From NCBI GenBank assembly GCA_938023035.1, contig CALIDI010000021.1:1-64000 (forward strand): DNA of 64,000 nucleotides, written 5' to 3'. The notes beneath the pieces were generated by a model. It had not been told where the DNA came from and did no database searches. It saw nothing but the letters and a program-made list of their open reading frames with translations. This DNA is from an uncultured Leptolyngbyaceae cyanobacterium (GTDB lineage: Bacteria > Cyanobacteriota > Cyanobacteriia > Leptolyngbyales > Leptolyngbyaceae). Of this stretch, positions 8,024 to 61,903 are shown in pieces. The translations under genes were made by a program, and so were the position numbers. How positions within the stretch are numbered: position 1 is the first letter of the stretch; each line of letters begins with the position of its first letter.

Positions 8024-10714
8024 ATGACTTTTCCTTCTGACGTTCAGATGTCGAATGCTGCGATCGCCCCTTCAGGGCACTCATCCGCCCATATTCCAGC
8101 TCTACACACAGCCCAGGGGGTCTACGTCACCATTCATGGGCATTTTTACCAGCCCCCACGGGAAAACCCCTACCTAGATGCCATTGAGCGCCAGCCCAGT
8201 GCTAGCCCCGCCCATGACTGGAATGAGCGTATCTGTCAGGAGTGCTACCGCCCCAATGCCTTTGCTCGGGTGCTCAATGATCGGGAAGAAGTGATTGGGA
8301 TTGTTAACAACTACGAATATCTCAGCTTTAACATTGGCCCAACCCTGATGAGCTGGTTAGAGCGGCATGATGTTGAAACTTATCAACGTATTCTGGAGGC
8401 CGATCGCAAAAGCTGTGAACGGCTGAATGGGCACGGGAACGCGATCGCTCAGGTTTACAACCACATCATCATGCCACTCGCTAATGAGCGAGACAAACGC
8501 ACTCAAATTCGCTGGGGTAAGGCCGACTTTCGTTCCCATTTTGGCCGTGATCCCGAAGGCATGTGGCTGGCAGAAACAGCGGTTGATGCTGCGACCCTGG
8601 AGGCTCTTGTGGCAGAGGGCATTCGCTTTATCATCCTGGCTCCTTCCCAGGCCCAACGTTGTCGGCCCCAGCCTAGTGCAGACTGTCCCCATCCAGAGTG
8701 GCATGAGGTCGGGGGGAGTCAGATTGATCCTACCCGTCCCTATCGTTGTTATCTGCACTCCCACAAAAACTCAGAAAACCCTGCGTTTATTGATATTTTC
8801 TTCTACGATGGCCCTATCTCGCGGGATATGGGCTTTGACGATGCCCTCAGCAATGCTCATTATTTGGCAGGACGGTTGGGCCAGGCTATCAAAGGGGATC
8901 ATCGGCCCAGTCAGTTGATTGCCGTTGCGACCGATGGCGAAACCTTTGGGCATCACAAGGGTGGGACTGAGAAGTGCCTTGCCTACGCCTTTACCCATGA
9001 GTTTCCCAGTCGCGGCTGGACAGTAACCAACTTTGCCCATTACCTGGCGCTTAGCCCCCCAACCTGGGAGGTCGAGCTGAAACCGGTTACCGCTTGGAGT
9101 TGTAGCCATGGCGTTGATCGCTGGCAAGATGATTGTGGCTGTGGTGGTGGTGGTGAATGGCATCAGCGATGGCGCAGACCCCTGCGCGATGCCTTAAATT
9201 GGCTGCGAGATCAGCTGATTCAAGTTTATGAGGAGGCCGGATGTAAGTTGTTGCGCGACCCCTGGCGGGTCAGAGACGAGTACATCCAGGTTCTCCGCGA
9301 TCGCTCCACGGCAAATGTCACTGCATTTCTCACCCGACATCAGGCTCATGAGTTAACTGCGGCTGAACGGGTCGATGCTCTACGCCTGCTGGAAATGCAA
9401 CGGCACGCGTTGCTGATGTTCACGAGCTGTGGTTGGTTTTTTGAAGAGCTTTCTCGCCCTGAGGGCACTCAGATTCTCCGCTACGCGGCTCGCGCCTTAG
9501 AATTGGCAGGCGAGGTAACCGGCATTCAACTAGAGTGGGGGTTTATTCGCCGGCTAGAGCAAGCTCCCAGTAATGTCGATTTATTTGGCAATGGTGCGGG
9601 TGTCTACCAACAACTGGTAAAACCAGCGCAAATTAGTTTAGAGCAGGTGGCCGCTCACTATGCCATTAGTTCTCTGTTTTGCCCCTACGCCCGGGAGCAA
9701 ATGGTTTACTGCTATCACACGCGCCAGCTCGATTATCAGGTGCAGCATCTGGGCAGTCTCAGCCTGGCGATTGGGCAGGTGCAACTGACCTCAGAAATTA
9801 CCTGGGAAAGTCGGCACCTAGTATTTGCGGTTTTACACCTGGGTGGGTGGGATTTTCACTGCTGTATTCAGCCCTTTAATGGCCGCTTAGATTACGCTCA
9901 GCTCAAGGAGCGGCTATTTGCCGCCCTGCAACTAGCCAGTGCCGCCCAGGTTATCCTGGCAATGAATCAATTGTTTGGTGGGCAATCTTATAGTTTGCAG
10001 AGTCTCTTTGCCGAAGAGCGTCACCGCATTATGCGGCTGTTAACCCAGGAAACCCTAACCCGGCTCGACCAGCTCTATACCCAGGTCTACCGCGATAACT
10101 ACGGGGTCTTGTTAGCTTTTCACCGAGATGAAGTACCGGTGCCGCAAGAACTACAGGTGGCTGCTCAGGTGGCCTTGAGTCAACGCGCCCTGATGGCCTT
10201 GCGATCGCTCGAACAGGAGAGCAGCGATTTGTCGCCGGAGTCTCTCCAGGCCAGTTTTATCTGGTTAAATGAACTACGAGCGATCGCCACCGAGGCCAGT
10301 TACATGCGGTGCGGATTTGATTTGCCAGAGGCGAAGCAGTTGCTAGAGCGCTTATTAGTGCAGAGTCTCTGGTTTTTGCTCTATCACTTTGACGCTGAAA
10401 CCGCTGAACGCCAGGTCGAACGAGTGCAGCGATTAGTGCAATTAGGGGAAAAAATGGAGTTGGGCTTGTCTCTGGCCCAAGCGCAAGAAACTTACTTCCG
10501 CCAGTTGCACGCCTGGATTGTGCCAGAATGGCAACGCTGGAGCCAATTTCAGGAAGAATCAGCGGATGCACACACAGCGCGATCGCTGAACTTGGCCGAC
10601 TTGCATTTGCTGCTAAAACTCGGAGCTTTCCTCAAAGTCGATGTTTCCTACTGGCTGATGCATTTACCTGCCCCCTATCAAGTCCACACCAGCCTGCCCT
10701 GCTCCAGCTTATAG
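8024..10714 (+). CDS. GH57-type glucanotransferase/amylase-like protein with DUF3536
   Basis: An 896-residue glycoside hydrolase family 57 protein with a DUF3536 C-terminal region. It opens with VYVTIHGHFYQPPRENPYL (near 33-51), the family start motif HxHxxQP-like. The catalytic Glu sits in GMWLAETAVD (about residue 186) and the acid/base Asp in VATDGETFGHHKGG (about 303-316). A cysteine cluster DDCGCGGGGEWH lies near 366-377. GH57 enzymes act on alpha-1,4 glucans; this long form is common in cyanobacteria but its substrate is not established. The ATG at 8024 is in frame with a second Met at residue 9. The gene has no close same-strand neighbour. A repeat copy follows the stop. Confidence 0.88.
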   Translation: MTFPSDVQMSNAAIAPSGHSSAHIPALHTAQGVYVTIHGHFYQPPRENPYLDAIERQPSASPAHDWNERICQECYRPNAFARVLNDREEVIGIVNNYEYLSFNIGPTLMSWLERHDVETYQRILEADRKSCERLNGHGNAIAQVYNHIIMPLANERDKRTQIRWGKADFRSHFGRDPEGMWLAETAVDAATLEALVAEGIRFIILAPSQAQRCRPQPSADCPHPEWHEVGGSQIDPTRPYRCYLHSHKNSENPAFIDIFFYDGPISRDMGFDDALSNAHYLAGRLGQAIKGDHRPSQLIAVATDGETFGHHKGGTEKCLAYAFTHEFPSRGWTVTNFAHYLALSPPTWEVELKPVTAWSCSHGVDRWQDDCGCGGGGEWHQRWRRPLRDALNWLRDQLIQVYEEAGCKLLRDPWRVRDEYIQVLRDRSTANVTAFLTRHQAHELTAAERVDALRLLEMQRHALLMFTSCGWFFEELSRPEGTQILRYAARALELAGEVTGIQLEWGFIRRLEQAPSNVDLFGNGAGVYQQLVKPAQISLEQVAAHYAISSLFCPYAREQMVYCYHTRQLDYQVQHLGSLSLAIGQVQLTSEITWESRHLVFAVLHLGGWDFHCCIQPFNGRLDYAQLKERLFAALQLASAAQVILAMNQLFGGQSYSLQSLFAEERHRIMRLLTQETLTRLDQLYTQVYRDNYGVLLAFHRDEVPVPQELQVAAQVALSQRALMALRSLEQESSDLSPESLQASFIWLNELRAIATEASYMRCGFDLPEAKQLLERLLVQSLWFLLYHFDAETAERQVERVQRLVQLGEKMELGLSLAQAQETYFRQLHAWIVPEWQRWSQFQEESADAHTARSLNLADLHLLLKLGAFLKVDVSYWLMHLPAPYQVHTSLPCSSL

Positions 10715-10748
10715 CGGCTCTCCTGATCGAGAGCATGCCACCTTTCGG

Positions 10749-10850
10749 CCCTCATCTCCCGGGTCGGGAGAAGGGAAGCCGAGCCAACCTCAGAGTTTCT
10801 CTCCCAAGTTGGGAAAGGGCTTTAGGGTGAGGGCAAAAGTAACGCATACC
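10749..10850 (-). repeat. Dispersed palindromic repeat, copy 1 (inverted)
   Basis: Contains CTCTCCCAAGTTGGGAAAGGG and GGGTGAGGGC. Read on the minus strand, the order TGCGTTACTTTTGCCCTCACCC matches TGCATGTCACTTTTACCCTCACCC at 28410, so it is the same element in opposite orientation. Confidence 0.7.
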
Positions 10851-11079
10851 CATCCCTATCGTTGTCTGAGTGGTGTCGTTGTCAATTTTCAATGGTTTTC
10901 AAAGGGGCCGACTCTGCCAACCTCGTTGATTTCTCAACAGGCGCGAGTGAGAAGCCAGAGCCACCTGATTGGAGCTGGGGTTAAGGGGGGAGAACCCTTG
11001 GCTAGGGTGTTGCCCCTCTACCCCCTTAACCCCCAATGGACGCCGCAACCTCGCGATGGCCATAAAGCCAACAGAATCG
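10851..11079. other. Intergenic GC-rich stretch
   Basis: No gene is seen. It contains a second, unrelated inverted segment around 10977-11036: GGGGTTAAGGGGG and CCCCCTTAACCCC can pair into a long imperfect hairpin. This lies just downstream of the ndk stop on the minus strand and could end that transcript. Confidence 0.4.
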
Positions 11080-11529
11080 TTATTCGTGAATCCAGCTCAT
11101 CAACGTTGGTTGCCAACTGACCAATTCTTCCTCTGTAAACCAGAGGGCAATTTCCGTTTGGGCTGTTTCAGGTGCATCAGAACCATGAATAATATTGCGC
11201 CCAATGTTGGCCCCAAAATCGCCTCGGATCGTCCCAGGCTCCGCATTGAGGGGGTTTGTCGCTCCAATCAACTTGCGGGCCGCTGCAATCACACCCTCCC
11301 CCTCCCAAACCATCGCCACAACTGGGCCAGAGGTAATAAACTCAACCAGGCCAGGGAAAAAGGGCCTTTCTTTGTGCACTCCATAGTGCTCCTCGGCCAG
11401 GGCCTTGCTCACACTCATCAGCTTTAAGCCAACCAGGGTAAAGCCCTTTGCCTCAAAACGACGGATGATTTCACCCACAAGCTTACGCTGCACACCGTCG
11501 GGCTTGATTGCCAGAAATGTCCGTTCCAA
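11080..11529 (-). CDS. ndk: Nucleoside diphosphate kinase
   Basis: A 149-residue enzyme that passes the gamma-phosphate from ATP to other NDPs through a phospho-histidine. The signature NIIHGSDA carries the catalytic His at about residue 115, and the N-terminus [14 protein letters not shown] is the family start. Start: the open frame runs to TTG 11553, but family members begin with (M/V)ERTF, and TTG 11529 has GAGGAG about six bases upstream, so the TTG at 11529 is chosen. Length and all nucleotide-binding residues look normal. It is a single gene, convergent with the GH57 gene and divergent from the 12-kb cluster. Confidence 0.95.
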
Positions 11530-11870
11530 GGTTGACTCCTCAATAGTGATCAATTGTTACCGAATCCAGATTACTGCAATTTTTCCACCGACCCGCGTAA
11601 CCCACCCAAAATTTACGGGAATCTAACCCTGAGCGCGGGTTGCTGATTGGCTAGAAATCGTCTGAGCCAGGTCTCCTAGAGACTTCTTCCCCATAGCCCG
11701 ACGATCTTACAGATGATCTCGAATAGGGGCATCCGTTCTTACTTTACAACTCGCAGTGAAAAAACGTCCTGATCCTTCCGGAGTTGCGCCGAATTTGCTA
11801 ATACGGCAGCTTAGACCGGAGCCTTCCTTCCTGATGTTTCCGATCGGTTGTTCCTTTCCCCTGGCTGTTG
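11530..11870. other. Intergenic leader region between ndk and the DUF4159 cluster
   Basis: No gene is seen on either strand. The stretch separates two divergent transcription units, so promoters for both should lie here. Because a terminator-like hairpin follows at 11871, a short plus-strand transcript could start in this interval. Confidence 0.4.
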
Positions 11871-11925
11871 CTGTTCCTTTGTTTAGTGCGCTGCTGTGCC
11901 TCAGCAAAGGAACAGGGGGTTTTTT
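11871..11925 (+). terminator. Intrinsic terminator-like hairpin upstream of the cluster
   Basis: CTGTTCCTTTG (11871-11881) pairs perfectly over 11 bp with CAAAGGAACAG (11905-11915), followed by GGGG and six T (11920-11925). On the plus strand this is a good intrinsic terminator, but no plus-strand gene lies upstream, since ndk is on the other strand. It may therefore end a small RNA or act as an attenuator for the gene starting at 11992. Confidence 0.6.
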
Positions 11926-11967
11926 GGACAGGGCACCCCATCGTGGGGGTATCCCCCCTCTCTTCTA

Positions 11968-11973
11968 TATAAT
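11968..11973 (+). promoter_or_regulatory. Possible -10 box (TATAAT)
   Basis: A consensus TATAAT lies 18 bases before ATG 11992. A tight GGGGG-TAT-CCCCC inverted repeat (11945-11957) occupies the -35 region. Use as a promoter would give a leader of only about a dozen bases, downstream of the hairpin at 11871-11925. Confidence 0.4.
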
Positions 11974-11991
11974 GCACCATTGCCCTCTACC

Positions 11992-13344
11992 ATGACTCAA
12001 TCGTTTCCCTTTCCTTCGATTCAGGTGTTTGAGCGGTTGCAGGTTACGGATGGCTTGCGCATCACGGCTGAGCGCTGGCGACGTGCCCATGATTACCACC
12101 GGCAACGCCAAAATTTGCACTATCAAGCGTTGCATCAGCCGGGCCTTGTTTCTGGCTTAGGGGTGCATCCTAGCCTGCCGCCGTCGGAGGTGCCCAGTAA
12201 ATATCGCGATGGCTGTTGGCTACAGATTCAGCCAGGGATTGCGATCGATTGGGCTGGCAACCCGATTGTGGTGCCAGAGGTGATTGATTTCCACATTACG
12301 ACGAAACCGAGTTTGCATCCGGTGATGGTGTATGTGGTGCTGAGTTATGTAGACCCGCAGGATTTGAAGGGCTTAGAGTCGCAGGAGTGGGTACGGGAAA
12401 CGTTTCGAATTGATGAGAAAAATACTCCCCCAACGCCGACAGAGGTTGAGCTGTGCCGAATTCATCTGGCTCCGAATGTCAGCCAGCTCACGCTGCCGGA
12501 GGATGTGTTTGCCCCTGGGCTAAACCAGATTGACTTGCGCGATCGCCCCTTGGCTCAGTTGCGGCCTCAACGGGTCGTGCACATGGGCGAGGTGATTCGT
12601 TCGGATGACCCCACCGCCACTCGGCGATCGCCCCAATTGGCACAGTTTGCCCAATCGGTACCAGCTCTCTACCCGGCAATGGATGTGGGGTTTGGGAGGG
12701 TCGGGTTGCTAGAGCTAGATGCGGTGGATCTGCCCTACGATGTGCTGTACCTGACGGGGGAAGCCCCCTTCTTTCCCAGCCAGGCCGAGGCGATCGCCCT
12801 GAAGCAGTATATTGATCAGGGCGGGGTGCTGTTAGTAGATGTGCCTGCCAGTGGAGCCACCCTGGCCCGGAGCATAATGGATTTTGCTCAATTTGTGGGC
12901 ACACCACTGACATATTTGGAACCACCCCCCCAGCTACGGGCAGTCGAATCGCCCAACCATCAGCATCCCCTGCGGCTAGAGCCGTTTGTGTTTGCCCAAT
13001 TCCCCCAAATTGCTAGCAAGCCGGTGCAGGTGCTGGTAGGGGGTGGCATTGTCATGGTGTTGGGTGACTTGGCGAGTGCCTGGGGCCTCACCGAGGGCTG
13101 CTTACTGCCGCGAGAAACCCTGCGATCGGCCCAGGAATTTGGCATTAACCTCTTGAACTTTGCCCATAAACGGCGGAATTGGACACAACTGCTACAGACT
13201 CCTCCAAGCTATGGGGTGCAATCACGTCAGGCAAATGCTCAGCCAGCCACGACCTCTACCCTGGGGATGGCCACCAGTTTTGCGGCTGGCCAGGCGAGCA
13301 ACTCCCGTTCTGAGCAAATCGAGCAAGTTCTTGGACAGATTTAA
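11992..13344 (+). CDS. DUF4159 protein with injection-system-like N-terminal domain
   Basis: 450 residues. Residues about 1-110 have the pattern LRITAERWRRAHDYHRQRQN, then LHQPGLVSGLGV, then PGIAIDWAGNPIVVP. In my memory this layout occurs in proteins encoded next to baseplate genes of contractile injection systems. Residues about 230-420 form a DUF4159 domain: YDVLYLTGEAPFF, a YIDQGGVLLVDVPASG strand-helix, and a closing EFGINLLNFA. No signal peptide or membrane segment is seen. The open frame extends to 11896, but ATG 11992 precedes the recognisable domain. It is first of a four-gene cluster with a 171-base gap to the next gene. Molecular function is unknown; DUF4159 domains are glutamine-amidotransferase-like in fold (established family knowledge), but no catalytic triad is evident to me. 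Confidence 0.75.
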   Translation: MTQSFPFPSIQVFERLQVTDGLRITAERWRRAHDYHRQRQNLHYQALHQPGLVSGLGVHPSLPPSEVPSKYRDGCWLQIQPGIAIDWAGNPIVVPEVIDFHITTKPSLHPVMVYVVLSYVDPQDLKGLESQEWVRETFRIDEKNTPPTPTEVELCRIHLAPNVSQLTLPEDVFAPGLNQIDLRDRPLAQLRPQRVVHMGEVIRSDDPTATRRSPQLAQFAQSVPALYPAMDVGFGRVGLLELDAVDLPYDVLYLTGEAPFFPSQAEAIALKQYIDQGGVLLVDVPASGATLARSIMDFAQFVGTPLTYLEPPPQLRAVESPNHQHPLRLEPFVFAQFPQIASKPVQVLVGGGIVMVLGDLASAWGLTEGCLLPRETLRSAQEFGINLLNFAHKRRNWTQLLQTPPSYGVQSRQANAQPATTSTLGMATSFAAGQASNSRSEQIEQVLGQI

Positions 13345-15791: not shown

Positions 15792-18260
15792 ATGACGAAA
15801 GAGTTACCCATTCCCGCCCTTAGTAGCACCCTTGGCCTGACGGCTGCCGATTTGCTGCTGTTACCGCTTGATCTGCAACCCCTGGCCCGGCTGTTTTTAA
15901 CCGAGACGCAACCCCTCACCCTAGAGCAGGTGGCGGCGCGACTCCAGCAAGACCCGGCTCTGACCCTAACCGGGCTACGCACCCTGATCGATAGCCAACT
16001 GGTTGAAAGTAGTACGGTGAATGGGGTGATCTGCTACCAAAAAGTCAGCGGGCAGCGACGCAGCAGCCAAATCGCCGAGCAATTGTTTCAGGCGTTAGCG
16101 CCGGGTTCGCCCCTGGCAGTGATTCGTAACCCTAGCGGAGAGCAACAGGTCGTTGCAGGGGAGGAATTTTTACTCTCCGTTACGGTGAACAATCAGGGGC
16201 AACGCAATGCCCTGGTAGATGTGTATCTGGAAGATGGCACACCCCCCTATGAATGGTGCCATGACCCCAGCGATCGCCTGGCTCTGGCACCGCCGCCCCA
16301 GCGTCGATTTGGCGAAGCCCATTCCCGTTCAGAGGCGATCGCCTCTGGTACCTCTGGAGAGGTATTGTTTCACTTTCAAGTACCCGCTTCGGCAACCCCC
16401 CAGCTTTACACCTACACGCTGGTAATTGACTCACGGGAGCATTATCCCGAAGTGACCCCCCTCTACTACCAGCAAAGTGTACGAGTGTTGCCGCCAGTGC
16501 GCGAAGTGCAGAAGACCAAAGACCCTACCTTTTTGGTACAGCCTGTTACGCGCTCTAGCCAGCCAGGGCAGGTGCCCCTAGAAGTCAAAGTAACAGTACA
16601 CAATATCTCCAACCGGGTTGATCGCTTTCGTCTGACCTGCCCAGATATTTCCCCAGAATGGTATACCATTCGCTATCCAGAAGCACTCGAAACGCCAGGA
16701 GTAGTGCTAGAAGCTAATGGACTGGCCCTCAACCCCGGTGCCAAGGGCGAGATTTTTTTGATCCTACATCCCCCAGCCACCACCCCAGCGGGCATTTATT
16801 CCCCCACCCTGCGGTTGCAATCGGCCAATAATCCCAATCTGGCCCTGCTGGATCTGGTCTACCTAGAAGTCCCCCCCCTCTATGACCTAGTTTTAGAACT
16901 GCGCACGCTTCGGGGGGCTGTGCGTGAGCGGGCTGGCCACTATGAAGTGTGCTTGCAAAACCGGGGAAATACCGAACGGACCATTCACCTGCTGGCGGTT
17001 GGCGGCGAAGATAACCCCACCTGCGACTATCGCCTGGCCGCAACCGATTTATTGCTACCGCCCTACCAGTCGGAGGTGGTACCGCTGCAGGTGCAACCTC
17101 TGAAATGGTGGCAACGGCCCCTATTCGGTAAAAGTAAGGCCATTCATTTCTACGTTGAGGCCACAGATCCGCAAGCCTTACCGATTGTCAACCCCCGCCT
17201 GCCGGGTGTGTTGCTTTGGCGTGCCCGCTCCTGGTGGCAGGTTTTATTGCTATTGGTACTAGCGGCCTTGTTGTTAGGAACTGCGGGCTATCTGCTCTGG
17301 CGCTATTTTCCCCGTCCACCAGCCCCGCCGCGTATTCTCACCCTGGAGGCTGCCGACCTCACCTACAAAGAGGCAGAAGGGGAGGCCATTCGGTTGAATT
17401 GGAGTGTGCGCAACCCCAAGGCACTACAGGAACTGCGTCTGAGTAGTTCGGCAGAAGAAACAGCAACAGCGAGCAAGCCCATTGTTTATGATCTGCGCCA
17501 GGGCATCCCAGAGGCCTTGCATCCCTTCTGTGGCAAAGAATTGCGCTCGGTTTTGATGTGTAAAGGAGTGCCAACGGCTGCCCGTAGAGCCGGTAAGTAT
17601 GCCTTTGAGCTGGCAATCGTACCGAAAGATGCCGAAGGAGAACCCAGTGATGTGAAAAAGACCGCATCGATTGAGATTGTGGCTCCCCCGGCTCAGGTGC
17701 CGGTGATTACCGAATTTAAGATTGATAACCAGGAAGCCCGTCCCAAATACTTGATTCCTATCAACCCCAATCAACCCGTGCGGCAGGTGATACTTTCCTG
17801 GAAAGTAACAGGTGGCCAGGATCTGAAAGTGGAGCTATTGCCTGCTCCTGGCAGTGTTAAACCCGAAGGTGCGATCGCCTATCGCGTGACCCAGCGCCTA
17901 GGAGCCGAGACCTATACCCTCAAAGCCACCAACGCCGCCGGACAAAGTGTCACCCGCTCAGTCGTGATTGAAACCTTTGACCCCGCTGCCCCTAGCCCAA
18001 CTCCCTCACCGATCGTGCTACCCACCCTGCCAGCCGGTGTGCCTGGGAGCGCCGGCGCGCCTTTACCCCCTGTACCGATTCCAGGAGCTGCTCCCTTACC
18101 ATTGGCAGCCCCTGGAACCGGACAAGCAGGTGCACCCGCCAGTAGCCCCGTGACCCCGCGACCGAGCACCTCCCCCGCACCATCTCCCAATCCCAATGCG
18201 CCCGCCCCCACAGATCCCGGTCGTTTATCGCCTTCAGAACTGCCGCCTCAATTTAATTAA
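15792..18260 (+). CDS. Membrane protein with winged-helix-like N-terminus and Ig-like repeats
   Basis: 822 residues. Residues about 1-90 look like a winged helix (LTLEQVAARLQQDPALTLTG, then LRTLIDSQLVESS). Residues about 100-460 hold several COG1470/NEW3-type Ig-like modules (LSVTVNNQGQRNALVDVYL; EVKVTVHNISNRVDRFRL). One transmembrane helix lies near 481-503. A second set of beta modules occupies about 510-720, and the last ~100 residues are Pro/Ala/Ser-rich. It shares the Ig-TM plan of the preceding WD40 protein, suggesting the two pair in the membrane. The gene starts 5 bases after the WD40 stop. No enzyme motif is seen; names such as hydrolytic protein that databases give to relatives are not supported by the sequence. 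Confidence 0.75.
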   Translation: MTKELPIPALSSTLGLTAADLLLLPLDLQPLARLFLTETQPLTLEQVAARLQQDPALTLTGLRTLIDSQLVESSTVNGVICYQKVSGQRRSSQIAEQLFQALAPGSPLAVIRNPSGEQQVVAGEEFLLSVTVNNQGQRNALVDVYLEDGTPPYEWCHDPSDRLALAPPPQRRFGEAHSRSEAIASGTSGEVLFHFQVPASATPQLYTYTLVIDSREHYPEVTPLYYQQSVRVLPPVREVQKTKDPTFLVQPVTRSSQPGQVPLEVKVTVHNISNRVDRFRLTCPDISPEWYTIRYPEALETPGVVLEANGLALNPGAKGEIFLILHPPATTPAGIYSPTLRLQSANNPNLALLDLVYLEVPPLYDLVLELRTLRGAVRERAGHYEVCLQNRGNTERTIHLLAVGGEDNPTCDYRLAATDLLLPPYQSEVVPLQVQPLKWWQRPLFGKSKAIHFYVEATDPQALPIVNPRLPGVLLWRARSWWQVLLLLVLAALLLGTAGYLLWRYFPRPPAPPRILTLEAADLTYKEAEGEAIRLNWSVRNPKALQELRLSSSAEETATASKPIVYDLRQGIPEALHPFCGKELRSVLMCKGVPTAARRAGKYAFELAIVPKDAEGEPSDVKKTASIEIVAPPAQVPVITEFKIDNQEARPKYLIPINPNQPVRQVILSWKVTGGQDLKVELLPAPGSVKPEGAIAYRVTQRLGAETYTLKATNAAGQSVTRSVVIETFDPAAPSPTPSPIVLPTLPAGVPGSAGAPLPPVPIPGAAPLPLAAPGTGQAGAPASSPVTPRPSTSPAPSPNPNAPAPTDPGRLSPSELPPQFN

Positions 18261-18284
18261 CACAAGTCATTTCCAGTCAGTTTT

Positions 18285-18845
18285 ATGCCACCAAATCAAC
18301 GGATCACAGAAATATCAGGCAAACCTGCTAAGGTCTGGGGTAACATACTTACCCCTTCAACCGGCACCATTAGCGTGAAGATTATGGGTGACACCCTTCA
18401 TGCAACACTCATAAGTGGGATGGAGAAAACAGAATCCTGGGTACGAATCAAAAATATCGATACTATCGAAGTCACTGAATGCCCAGAGTATTTACTGCTA
18501 GCGCTAGGGGGCTTTTTGGTGATTTTTGGGCTGGGATGCTTTGTGAATTCGTTGGTAACGGCGGGCTTATTTTTAGTGAGTTTAATTCTGCTTGCAGGTG
18601 GCATTGCGTGTATCGTGCTCTACTTGACTTACAAACGCCGTCTACTCGTCTTCTATACTGTTCGCTACACCCTGCCGGTTTTTATGACAAAAGCGCCTTC
18701 GACCTACCAACAATTTGCAGAGCAGGTAATAATGATCTCAAGACATTTAAATTCTTTTCCTGCGGTTTCTCAAAGTAACAGTAGAGCGACGAATCAGCGG
18801 ACAGTTGTACCCTCAACAAAACGACAACAGCCTGATACACCATAG
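18285..18845 (+). CDS. Small two-helix membrane protein of the cluster
   Basis: 186 residues: a polar N-terminal domain (1-65), two closely spaced membrane helices (about 69-92 and 95-117), a PH-like or beta-rich segment (KRRLLVFYTVRYTLPVFMTK), and a Ser/Thr/Gln-rich tail. ATG 18285 lies 24 bases after the previous stop, so it is probably the last gene of the operon. The membrane-hairpin-plus-beta layout resembles bacterial PH-domain membrane proteins, but this is only a similarity of form. No function is assigned. Confidence 0.6.
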   Translation: MPPNQRITEISGKPAKVWGNILTPSTGTISVKIMGDTLHATLISGMEKTESWVRIKNIDTIEVTECPEYLLLALGGFLVIFGLGCFVNSLVTAGLFLVSLILLAGGIACIVLYLTYKRRLLVFYTVRYTLPVFMTKAPSTYQQFAEQVIMISRHLNSFPAVSQSNSRATNQRTVVPSTKRQQPDTP

Positions 18846-60125: not shown

Positions 60126-61903
60126 ATGCTGGGCCTAGCTTACACTTTCGTCTCAATGATGCGTCAACCCCGTTTTTTGTCGGTCTCAAAGCCTGTGCTC
60201 GCGATCGCCGCTTTGTTTTGGGTAGTCATGCTGCTTAGCATTTTGAACCGACATTTCGCAATGTATCCGTCTTTTTCAAACCACGACCAGGGAATTTTCA
60301 ACCAGGTGTTTTGGAATGGTGCCCATGGGCGCTGGTTTGAAAGCAGCCTCTCATCCGGGGAGTCGGCGGCTGTTTTGTTTGATCAACAAGTTCCAGATGT
60401 GGCCTATCGTCGCCTCGGCCAACACTTTACCCCCATCCATCTTCTCTGGCTACCGATTTATTGGGTTCTGCCCTTCTCAGCCACCCTATTGGTGTTGCAA
60501 GTGACGTTCGTCGCGATCGGGGGCCTGATGCTCTATCATCTGGCGCGGCAGCGTTTGTCAGAGCAGTTTTCCCTCTGGATTAGCCTGGGTTACTTCTGTG
60601 CTCAGGCGGTGATTGCCCCTAACTTGGCCAATTTCCATGACTTTTCTCAAATTCCGTTGTTTGTGTTTGCTCTACTGCTAGCCGTTGAACGGCAGCAATG
60701 GCTATGGGCGATCGCAGCGACAATCCTAGTATTTTTGTGTCGAGAAGATACGGGCATTATTCTGTTTAGCCTGGGTCTCTATTTTGCTGTGAGCCGCCAT
60801 TCTTTACGGTTTGGGGTGGGCTTATGCCTGGCTAGTGTGGCTCATCTACTAATCACCACAAACCTGTTGATGCCCTTGTTTTCTCCAGAGGTCGGTACCA
60901 ACTTTTTATCCACGTCCTATTCCCGTTATGTAGGGGGTGAGCACCCCTCTACGGTTGCTGTGCTGCTGGGGTTACTACAACACCCAGATCAAGTAGTCAT
61001 TGATCTGGTGACTCCGATTCTAATATCCATCCTTTTCCTGATTTTGGACAACACCCAGATCAAGTAGTCATTGATCTGGTGACCCCCTTCGATCATACGT
61101 TGAGGTTTCTGGCGGGCCACTGGCTACCGCTGCTATTTGTTCCGGTGGTGTCTCCAGCGACCTGGATCTGTGTAGCAGCCCCTTTGGCTGCACTCCTACT
61201 GCGAACAGACACCTCCATTGCCCTGTCAATGCAACTGCGCTATACGGTCATGATCGTACCGGGGTTATTTTATGGGGCCATTCTCTGGTGGTCGCACCGT
61301 TCCTTCCAGCTATCTCGGCCTATTCGTCGGCTTTGGGCTGCCTGCCTGTGTTTGAGCTTATTTTTTACGGTTACCTTAAACCCTTCCCGTACCTGGTCTT
61401 TCCTGATTCCTGACTCGGTCAGGCCCTGGGTGCACTTATCCTTACCACAGCAGTGGCAGCATGCCAGCGAGGTGCGATCGCTCCTGACCCAGATCGCCCC
61501 CGATGCCAGTGTCTCTGCCACCGATAATCTCTTACCTTACGTTTCTGGCCGACGTGCTGTTCTTAGATTTCCTGCCTTGAACGTTCAGAACGATGACCGT
61601 GTGGTTATTCAAGTAGAGGCGATTCTGGTGGATTTTTGGCAGCTTCAGCAATATCAGGCCGCCTTTGCTGATGCTCGCGAGCATTTACAAGCTTGGGTGC
61701 CGCTGGTGCAAACCATGATTACTGAGGCGCAGTATGGCTTGATCTCAGCAACCCCTGGAGTCTTCCTCCTGCAACGGGGTCAAGCTTCTAACCCAGCGGC
61801 GCTGGTGGCCTGGGCTGATTTTTTAGCCCATTTCAGGGAAGAGCACTCCAGCGAAATGCATCAAATGCATCAAAAGTTGCGGGGTGAGGGCCGCGAACCC
61901 TGA
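60126..61903 (+). pseudogene. DUF2079 membrane protein gene broken by a 71-bp insertion
   Basis: Two same-strand frames (60126-61067 and 61079-61903) are halves of one polytopic DUF2079 protein: NHDQGIFNQVFWNGAHGRWF and FTPIHLLWLPIYWVLPFSAT in the first, GHWLPLLFVPVVSPATW in the second. The first frame runs into foreign residues (TPILISILFLILDNTQIK) and stops. The cause is visible: a 36-bp sequence occurs at 60977 and again at 61048, offset 71 bases. Removing 71 bases joins the halves in frame into about 568 residues. As it stands, only a truncated 313-residue N-terminal part is made. DUF2079 proteins resemble membrane glycosyltransferases in layout, but function is unknown. Confidence 0.85.
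60977..61083 (+). repeat. 36-bp direct repeats flanking a 35-bp spacer
   Basis: Copies at 60977-61012 and 61048-61083 are identical. Each contains the inverted pair CCAGATCAA / TTGATCTGG and can fold into a hairpin. The spacer 61013-61047 shows no match to its surroundings. Confidence 0.93.

Follow-up and report, generated by a model that had tools for sequence, protein, structure and literature searches.

A CRISPR-like unit within a DUF2079 gene of a Leptolyngbyaceae cyanobacterium, probably formed by off-target spacer integration, and similar isolated units in the same genome

The broken DUF2079 gene and the 71-bp unit

In an uncultured Leptolyngbyaceae cyanobacterium (assembly GCA_938023035.1), a DUF2079 gene is interrupted by 71 bp that are very probably a CRISPR unit lying outside any array and formed by off-target spacer integration by Cas1-Cas2. 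We further lean towards the view that the CRISPR adaptation machinery of this cyanobacterial lineage acts chronically as an insertional mutagen and has left about thirty scars of different ages genome-wide, of which nine were seen in 27% of the genome. The window (the whole analysed stretch of DNA, positions 1 to 64,000 of contig CALIDI010000021.1) contains the following features of the locus, the unit being denoted U1.

60977–61012, + strand: first 36-bp copy of the target duplication, belonging to the gene itself and matching the second copy exactly; genome-wide only these two occur
61048–61083, + strand: second 36-bp copy of the target duplication, identical to the first
61013–61047, + strand: 35-bp spacer, unique in the genome, presumably captured DNA
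60984–61008, no strand assigned: dyad CCAGATCAA-7 nt-TTGATCTGG in the first copy
61055–61079, no strand assigned: dyad CCAGATCAA-7 nt-TTGATCTGG in the second copy
60126–61067, + strand: 5' portion of the interrupted DUF2079 gene, 313 aa (PF09852, E 9.5e-62, profile positions 9–247 of 459)
61079–61903, + strand: 3' portion of the interrupted DUF2079 gene, read in a different frame, 274 aa (PF09852, E 9.4e-44, profile positions 239–457 of 459)

The initial annotation had described identical 36-bp copies 71 bp apart, each with an inverted repeat, as an insertion that breaks the gene, and this anatomy is confirmed. The copies are exact, with a start-to-start distance of 71 bp, and 36 bp is their maximal length (the flanking bases differ at both ends). 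The stop of the 313-aa frame lies within the second copy, the 274-aa frame then follows, and the two frames match opposite ends of DUF2079; when the flanks are joined, a single stop-free stretch of 572 codons runs across the site, in accordance with the approximately 568 residues that removal of the unit had been expected to restore. Dyad arms as long as those of U1 are found in only 0.13% of 36-mers sampled from the window, and the single-strand fold of the 36-mer has z = −3.55.

The search of the rest of the genome for the spacer, suggested in the initial annotation, found it only once: its 29-nt core has no other match with up to three mismatches in the 4.75-Mb assembly, nor does the 36-bp repeat occur there beyond the pair. 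There are also no other direct repeats of at least 16 nt with a period of 45–110 in the window. Simple tandem duplication by slippage, already doubted in the initial annotation for want of a local source of the spacer, is rejected, as the copies do not abut and the core of the spacer has no second occurrence in the assembly.

Under the preferred explanation, a 36-bp stretch of the DUF2079 gene would have been attacked by Cas1-Cas2, which would have ligated a prespacer of 35 bp to its two ends, one on each strand. Gap repair would then have copied these 36 bp, so that the spacer came to be flanked by identical sequences and the reading frame was shifted.

The native CRISPR-Cas system

The only Cas1 gene found in the assembly resides on a 21-kb contig (C28), and U1 is on contig C21. 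At the Cas1 locus, the NCBIfam profiles of Cas10/Cmr2, Cmr4, Cas1 and Cas2 match well above their cut-offs and that of Cmr1 just above; because of these matches, we read the locus as type III-B. Cmr3, Cmr6 and Csm6-like CARF proteins score below the cut-offs. Four accessory frames are also seen in this locus (L033:2006–3697, 9931–11478, 11327–12982 and 16645–18375), two of them Csm6-like and the two others sharing stretches that are 78–87% alike in DNA.

Directly behind the type III-B locus there is an array with three copies of a 36-nt repeat at periods of 71 and 71, comprising two complete spacers, 35 and 35 nt; the contig ends within the array. The repeat and spacer lengths of U1 (36/35) are exactly those of this Cas1-adjoining array. 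Contig C6 begins with a second array (L159:13–560), which consists of nine exact copies of a 37-nt repeat with spacers of 34, 39, 35, 36, 34, 35, 36 and 34 nt; it lies on C6 although the assembly yielded only one Cas1 gene. Of 30 Cas1 loci, taken from this genome and from the relatives closest to it in the search, 27 have an array, mostly with repeats of 36–37 and periods of 69–89; L129 and L143 have no array, and L150 has something else.

Nivala et al. are said to have reported in 2018 that chromosomal stretches can become new repeats, to have listed a few putative natural cases, and to have named them neo-CRISPR. U1 has the corresponding features: its target duplication is of the native repeat length (36), its insert of 35 bp is of the native spacer length (35 and 35; 34–39 in the second array), both Cas1 and Cas2 are present, and the site in relatives is free of such an insertion (none of 99 loci, with protein identity of at most 69%). 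U1 differs from a canonical CRISPR array in two respects, since its repeat is the gene's own sequence, not one common to the native array, and since it is situated within the DUF2079 gene on C21, not adjoining cas genes.

The DUF2079 locus in other cyanobacteria

We compared both halves of the gene with 99 DUF2079 loci of other cyanobacteria, 19 of them from related genomes and 80 from GTDB contigs, the latter being the best of 205; the two sets overlap, with some genomes present twice. Both halves are in one frame without a stop in 87 of the 99 loci, two of these 87 having a one-codon length difference at the U1 site. The first version of the test flagged the remaining 12 loci as broken. In nine of them there is a stop only close to the protein end; L095 has a stop near the protein start, and L117 has stops near both ends. 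In the last one, L089, an assembly join, a false duplication containing an N, lies almost exactly where U1 does. Thus, a break common to all close relatives, considered in the initial annotation, is not what is observed: a CRISPR-like insertion at the U1 site is found in none of the 99 loci. Even the nearest relatives among the loci compared have at most 69% protein identity, and, as far as can be seen from these sequences, the insertion appears to be private to this genome. Matches to DUF2079 in two pieces were also noted in L119 (G009), L120 (G030) and L121 (G011).

The initial annotation had proposed a reversible switch, with recombination between the hairpin repeats toggling the DUF2079 gene. 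Exact 36-bp direct repeats are recombinable in principle, and the length of the insertion does shift the frame; however, the insertion is absent from all 99 loci of relatives, no sign of a recombinase was seen, and units of a similar kind are situated in unrelated places of the genome (see below). Nothing points to regulated or selected switching, which we regard as very unlikely; off-target spacer integration explains the origin of the unit better.

Further isolated units in the genome

To count isolated units we scanned 1,269,847 bp, or 27% of the genome, a non-random sample made up of contig starts and inner stretches. Complex direct repeats of at least 20 nt with periods of 40–400 were considered; both stretches that carry native arrays were excluded, and low-complexity pairs (score below 0.55) were dropped prior to counting. 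This yielded 15 complex isolated pairs, none with a period exceeding 84, and for 11 of the 15 the period is 70–75, compared to 0.25 pairs expected under even periods (binomial P about 3e-17, in a test that was framed post hoc and assumes evenness). Nine of these 11 pairs are similar to U1, with repeats of 33–40, spacers of 33–39 and periods of 70–74 (repeat/spacer lengths are given below).

U1, the unit in the window: 36/35
U2, L173:18858: 37/34
U3, L188:2258: 36/34
U4, L189:959: 37/35
U5, L189:14833: 33/39 (off the mode)
U6, L169:17719: 40/34
U7, L160:336: 38/33
U8, L229:5980: 39/34
U9, L237:7093: 39/33

In the repeats of 38–40 the edge bases may be chance matches. The nine units carry nine different spacers. 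There is one mismatch between the copies in U6, U7 and U8, and hence the units are probably of differing age. If the sampled density holds, the whole genome would contain approximately 30 units, presumably made by its own Cas1-Cas2.

Several pairs were not included. U10 (30/45, period 75) was left out since its spacer matches interspersed repeats, and U11 (21/49, period 70) due to its short repeat; U12 (L183, 28/35) is cut by the contig end and matches other repeats. A pair in L157 (23/19) was not counted as a unit, nor were two pairs in L189 that belong to a proline-alanine repeat.

The lengths also bear on the repair of a staggered double-strand break, where fill-in of the overhangs would duplicate the 36 bp and a 35-bp filler would be captured. 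Such repair would produce the identical anatomy with no need for an integrase, and it would agree with the failure to find a source for the U1 spacer, but it predicts no fixed lengths, whereas the nine units cluster (33–40/33–39, periods 70–74) similarly to the native arrays. We therefore consider break repair improbable and retain off-target spacer integration as the explanation.

Cas1 and the units in control genomes

The family search found one Cas1 gene in G000, three in G015, two in G023 and one in G016, and none in G001, G024 and G035. No units were found in the Cas1-less genomes G001, of the same genus (235,065 bp), and G024 (335,575 bp), that is, none in 571 kb in total, versus 4.0 expected at the rate of the genome studied here; the contrast is modest (P about 0.02–0.04). 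The 80 DUF2079 loci also contain no units in 499,807 bp. On the other hand, G023, which is a single contig with two Cas1 genes, has two units in 200,000 bp (L204:8270 and L210:18300; 37/36 and 38/36), so the phenomenon may extend beyond this genome. Having Cas1 is not enough, since no units were observed in 200,000 bp of the relative G015 with its three Cas1 genes. Taken together, a link of the units with Cas1 is suggestive.

The initial annotation had also left room for an assembly or sequencing artefact. The assembly is in 62 contigs, and in the relative L089 the false duplication that contains an N lies almost where U1 does. However, an artefact would reuse sequence of the genome, whereas the spacers of U1 and U2 occur nowhere else in the assembly; moreover, similar units recur with nine different spacers, and two are observed in the single-contig G023. 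An artefact thus has a very small probability compared to off-target integration.

Where the spacers come from

Within the scanned part of the genome, none of the nine spacers could be traced to a source, and for U2 the search of the whole assembly also gave no second copy. The U1 spacer had no match in GTDB contigs (exact 29-mer), in 387 other cyanobacterial genomes (a 26-nt part, up to three mismatches) or in IMG/VR (three exact scans with 20–22-mers); with the phage collection it gave only partial matches (E at least 0.4), and with the plasmid collection matches of E 1 or worse. For U2, U3, U4 and U9, one exact 21-mer each gave no matches in IMG/VR, and for U3 and U9 the phage collection yielded only partial matches with E of about 4. 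The mean GC content of the spacers is 0.44, as compared to 0.48 in the genome sample, and this difference is not significant (P 0.18). The U1 spacer would be of foreign origin under off-target integration.

A small mobile element that makes long target duplications, such as a MITE or an IS remnant, would likewise leave an insert flanked by a duplicated target. The insert of U1 is, however, single-copy in the genome, and the nine inserts match neither each other nor anything else in the DNA examined beyond chance, making a mobile element the least probable of the alternatives and leaving off-target integration preferred.

Five of the eight records of the weak plasmid matches to the U1 spacer fall within genes named Fic family protein, on four Fusobacterium plasmids, which match alike, and one Geminocystis plasmid. 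In one frame the spacer reads SDSNIHPFPDF, which resembles the core of Fic-family proteins, and the Fic gene of the Geminocystis plasmid (L283) reads FESIHPFPDGNGR at this place; HPF..GNG is the Fic core. Another Geminocystis plasmid matches 27 of the 35 bases of the spacer, outside the listed genes. These similarities are a weak lead, by which the U1 spacer could possibly stem from a plasmid Fic-family gene.

The only convincing viral or phage match among the six spacers searched (U1, U2, U3, U4, U8 and U9) belongs to U8. A 21-nt core of this spacer is matched in two IMG/VR contigs, the match being exact over bases 1–26 of 34 in both and covering 29/34 and 27/34 bases overall. In L277, it is situated between two same-strand open frames, with three less exact occurrences of the motif elsewhere in the examined part of the contig. 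In the phage collection, the U8 spacer gave 116 records; among the 40 listed, five match at bases 1–26 or 1–27, the best of these five with an E-value of 0.009. Most other listed records are of Klebsiella phage (bases 15–34, E 4) and were set aside. With two or three differences, the motif is present in four phage records (L279–L282), being intergenic in L279 (a Paracoccus phage) and L280 and lying within a hypothetical gene in L281, while L282 is unannotated. The presence of a phage motif in the U8 spacer is as predicted by capture of invader DNA.

The phage motif itself is approximately 26 bp long (TCCTGAGCA..GA....AAACTGCTCA), contains a 6-bp dyad and is often intergenic. Its sites are L229:6019–6044 (the U8 spacer), L277:1649, 4029, 5531 and 6723, L278, and L279–L282; thus, it is repeated in one viral contig and also occurs in phages of unrelated hosts. 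The U8 spacer starts exactly at the first base of the motif. The literature search found no paper on this motif.

Target choice

The U1 target is only weakly similar to the native repeat, matching it at 14 of 36 bases in the better orientation (P 0.044) and at 11 of 36 in the other one. The resemblance at the leader-side junction has P 0.052, in the orientation opposite to that of the 14/36 match. Over the nine sites, with all orientations tried, no common end motif was found (score 7.46 versus a null mean of 7.13 and a null maximum of 8.96). A 5'-GT at one end of four of the nine sites was noticed post hoc and carries no weight. The dyad of U1 may have aided the choice of the site; it is not shared by the other units, as the perfect dyad arms at the other measured sites (U2–U7) are only 3–5 bases long.

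Published precedents

The comparisons in this section follow those portions of the cited texts that were accessible. In vitro, Cas1-Cas2 of Streptococcus thermophilus integrates at a low level into a plasmid, at scattered sites that are not CRISPR, and a molecular ruler sets how far apart its two attacks fall (PMC6895254). The case is similar to what is proposed for U1 in being off-target integration with a ruler-set distance, and it differs in that the system is type II-A, the reaction was in vitro and the products are likely half-sites; in addition, that reaction favours guanine and a leader-like context (PMC6895254), whereas no such motif was found at the nine sites here. Ectopic acquisition in Streptococcus resembles U1 in that a spacer is gained away from the leader end, but those insertions, unlike U1, are inside existing arrays (PMC7999890).

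In Escherichia coli, Cas1-Cas2 acting alone integrates outside the array in vitro, according to a review (PMC10011333); in vivo results diverge from this, and IHF confers site specificity (PMC10011333). Overexpression leads to integration into non-array regions of the genome, a result credited to Nivala et al. 2018 (PMC11788318); the off-target integration of Nivala, Shipman and Church 2018 (Nat Microbiol 3:310) is also cited in PMC9456107 and PMC11687729. In that work, as is proposed for the present case, a spacer is integrated outside an array. The E. coli events followed overexpression (PMC11788318), whereas here nine candidates are observed in 27% of a natural type III-B genome. In the accessible portions of the open-licence literature, we recognised no description of such units from natural genomes or from those of cyanobacteria. 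Single off-target events have already been published, and many in one natural genome were not found in print.

Effects on genes and implications

The observations suggest that the machinery storing memories of viruses also mutates its host. If repeated natural integration is real, adaptive immunity would carry a mutational cost, and the fidelity of the integrase could be measured from sequence alone, by counting isolated units with native dimensions. Such integration would likewise illustrate how a CRISPR locus might originate, as well as a route for phage DNA into host proteins. Array finders probably discard one-spacer units as false calls, while taken together such units would constitute a record of both infections and integrase errors.

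If the machinery indeed acts as a mutagen, its units would knock out genes, add 24 residues in frame, or provide protein ends derived from phages. Both U1 and U2 break open frames, the latter splitting the AMIN domain from the plug domain in a TonB-receptor-like gene. The period of U4 and U9 is 72, so 24 residues are added in frame. U4 (L189:959–1067) lies in a membrane-protein-like frame, where VEADPPQEIVGG is duplicated around the spacer-encoded residues; U9 is within a repetitive proline-rich stretch, and for this unit ordinary duplication is a conceivable alternative origin. U8 falls at the extreme end of a gene for a histidine kinase, and the spacer and the second repeat now encode the final residues of this protein. 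There is no long frame across U3, U5 and U7, and U6 sits where an open frame begins.
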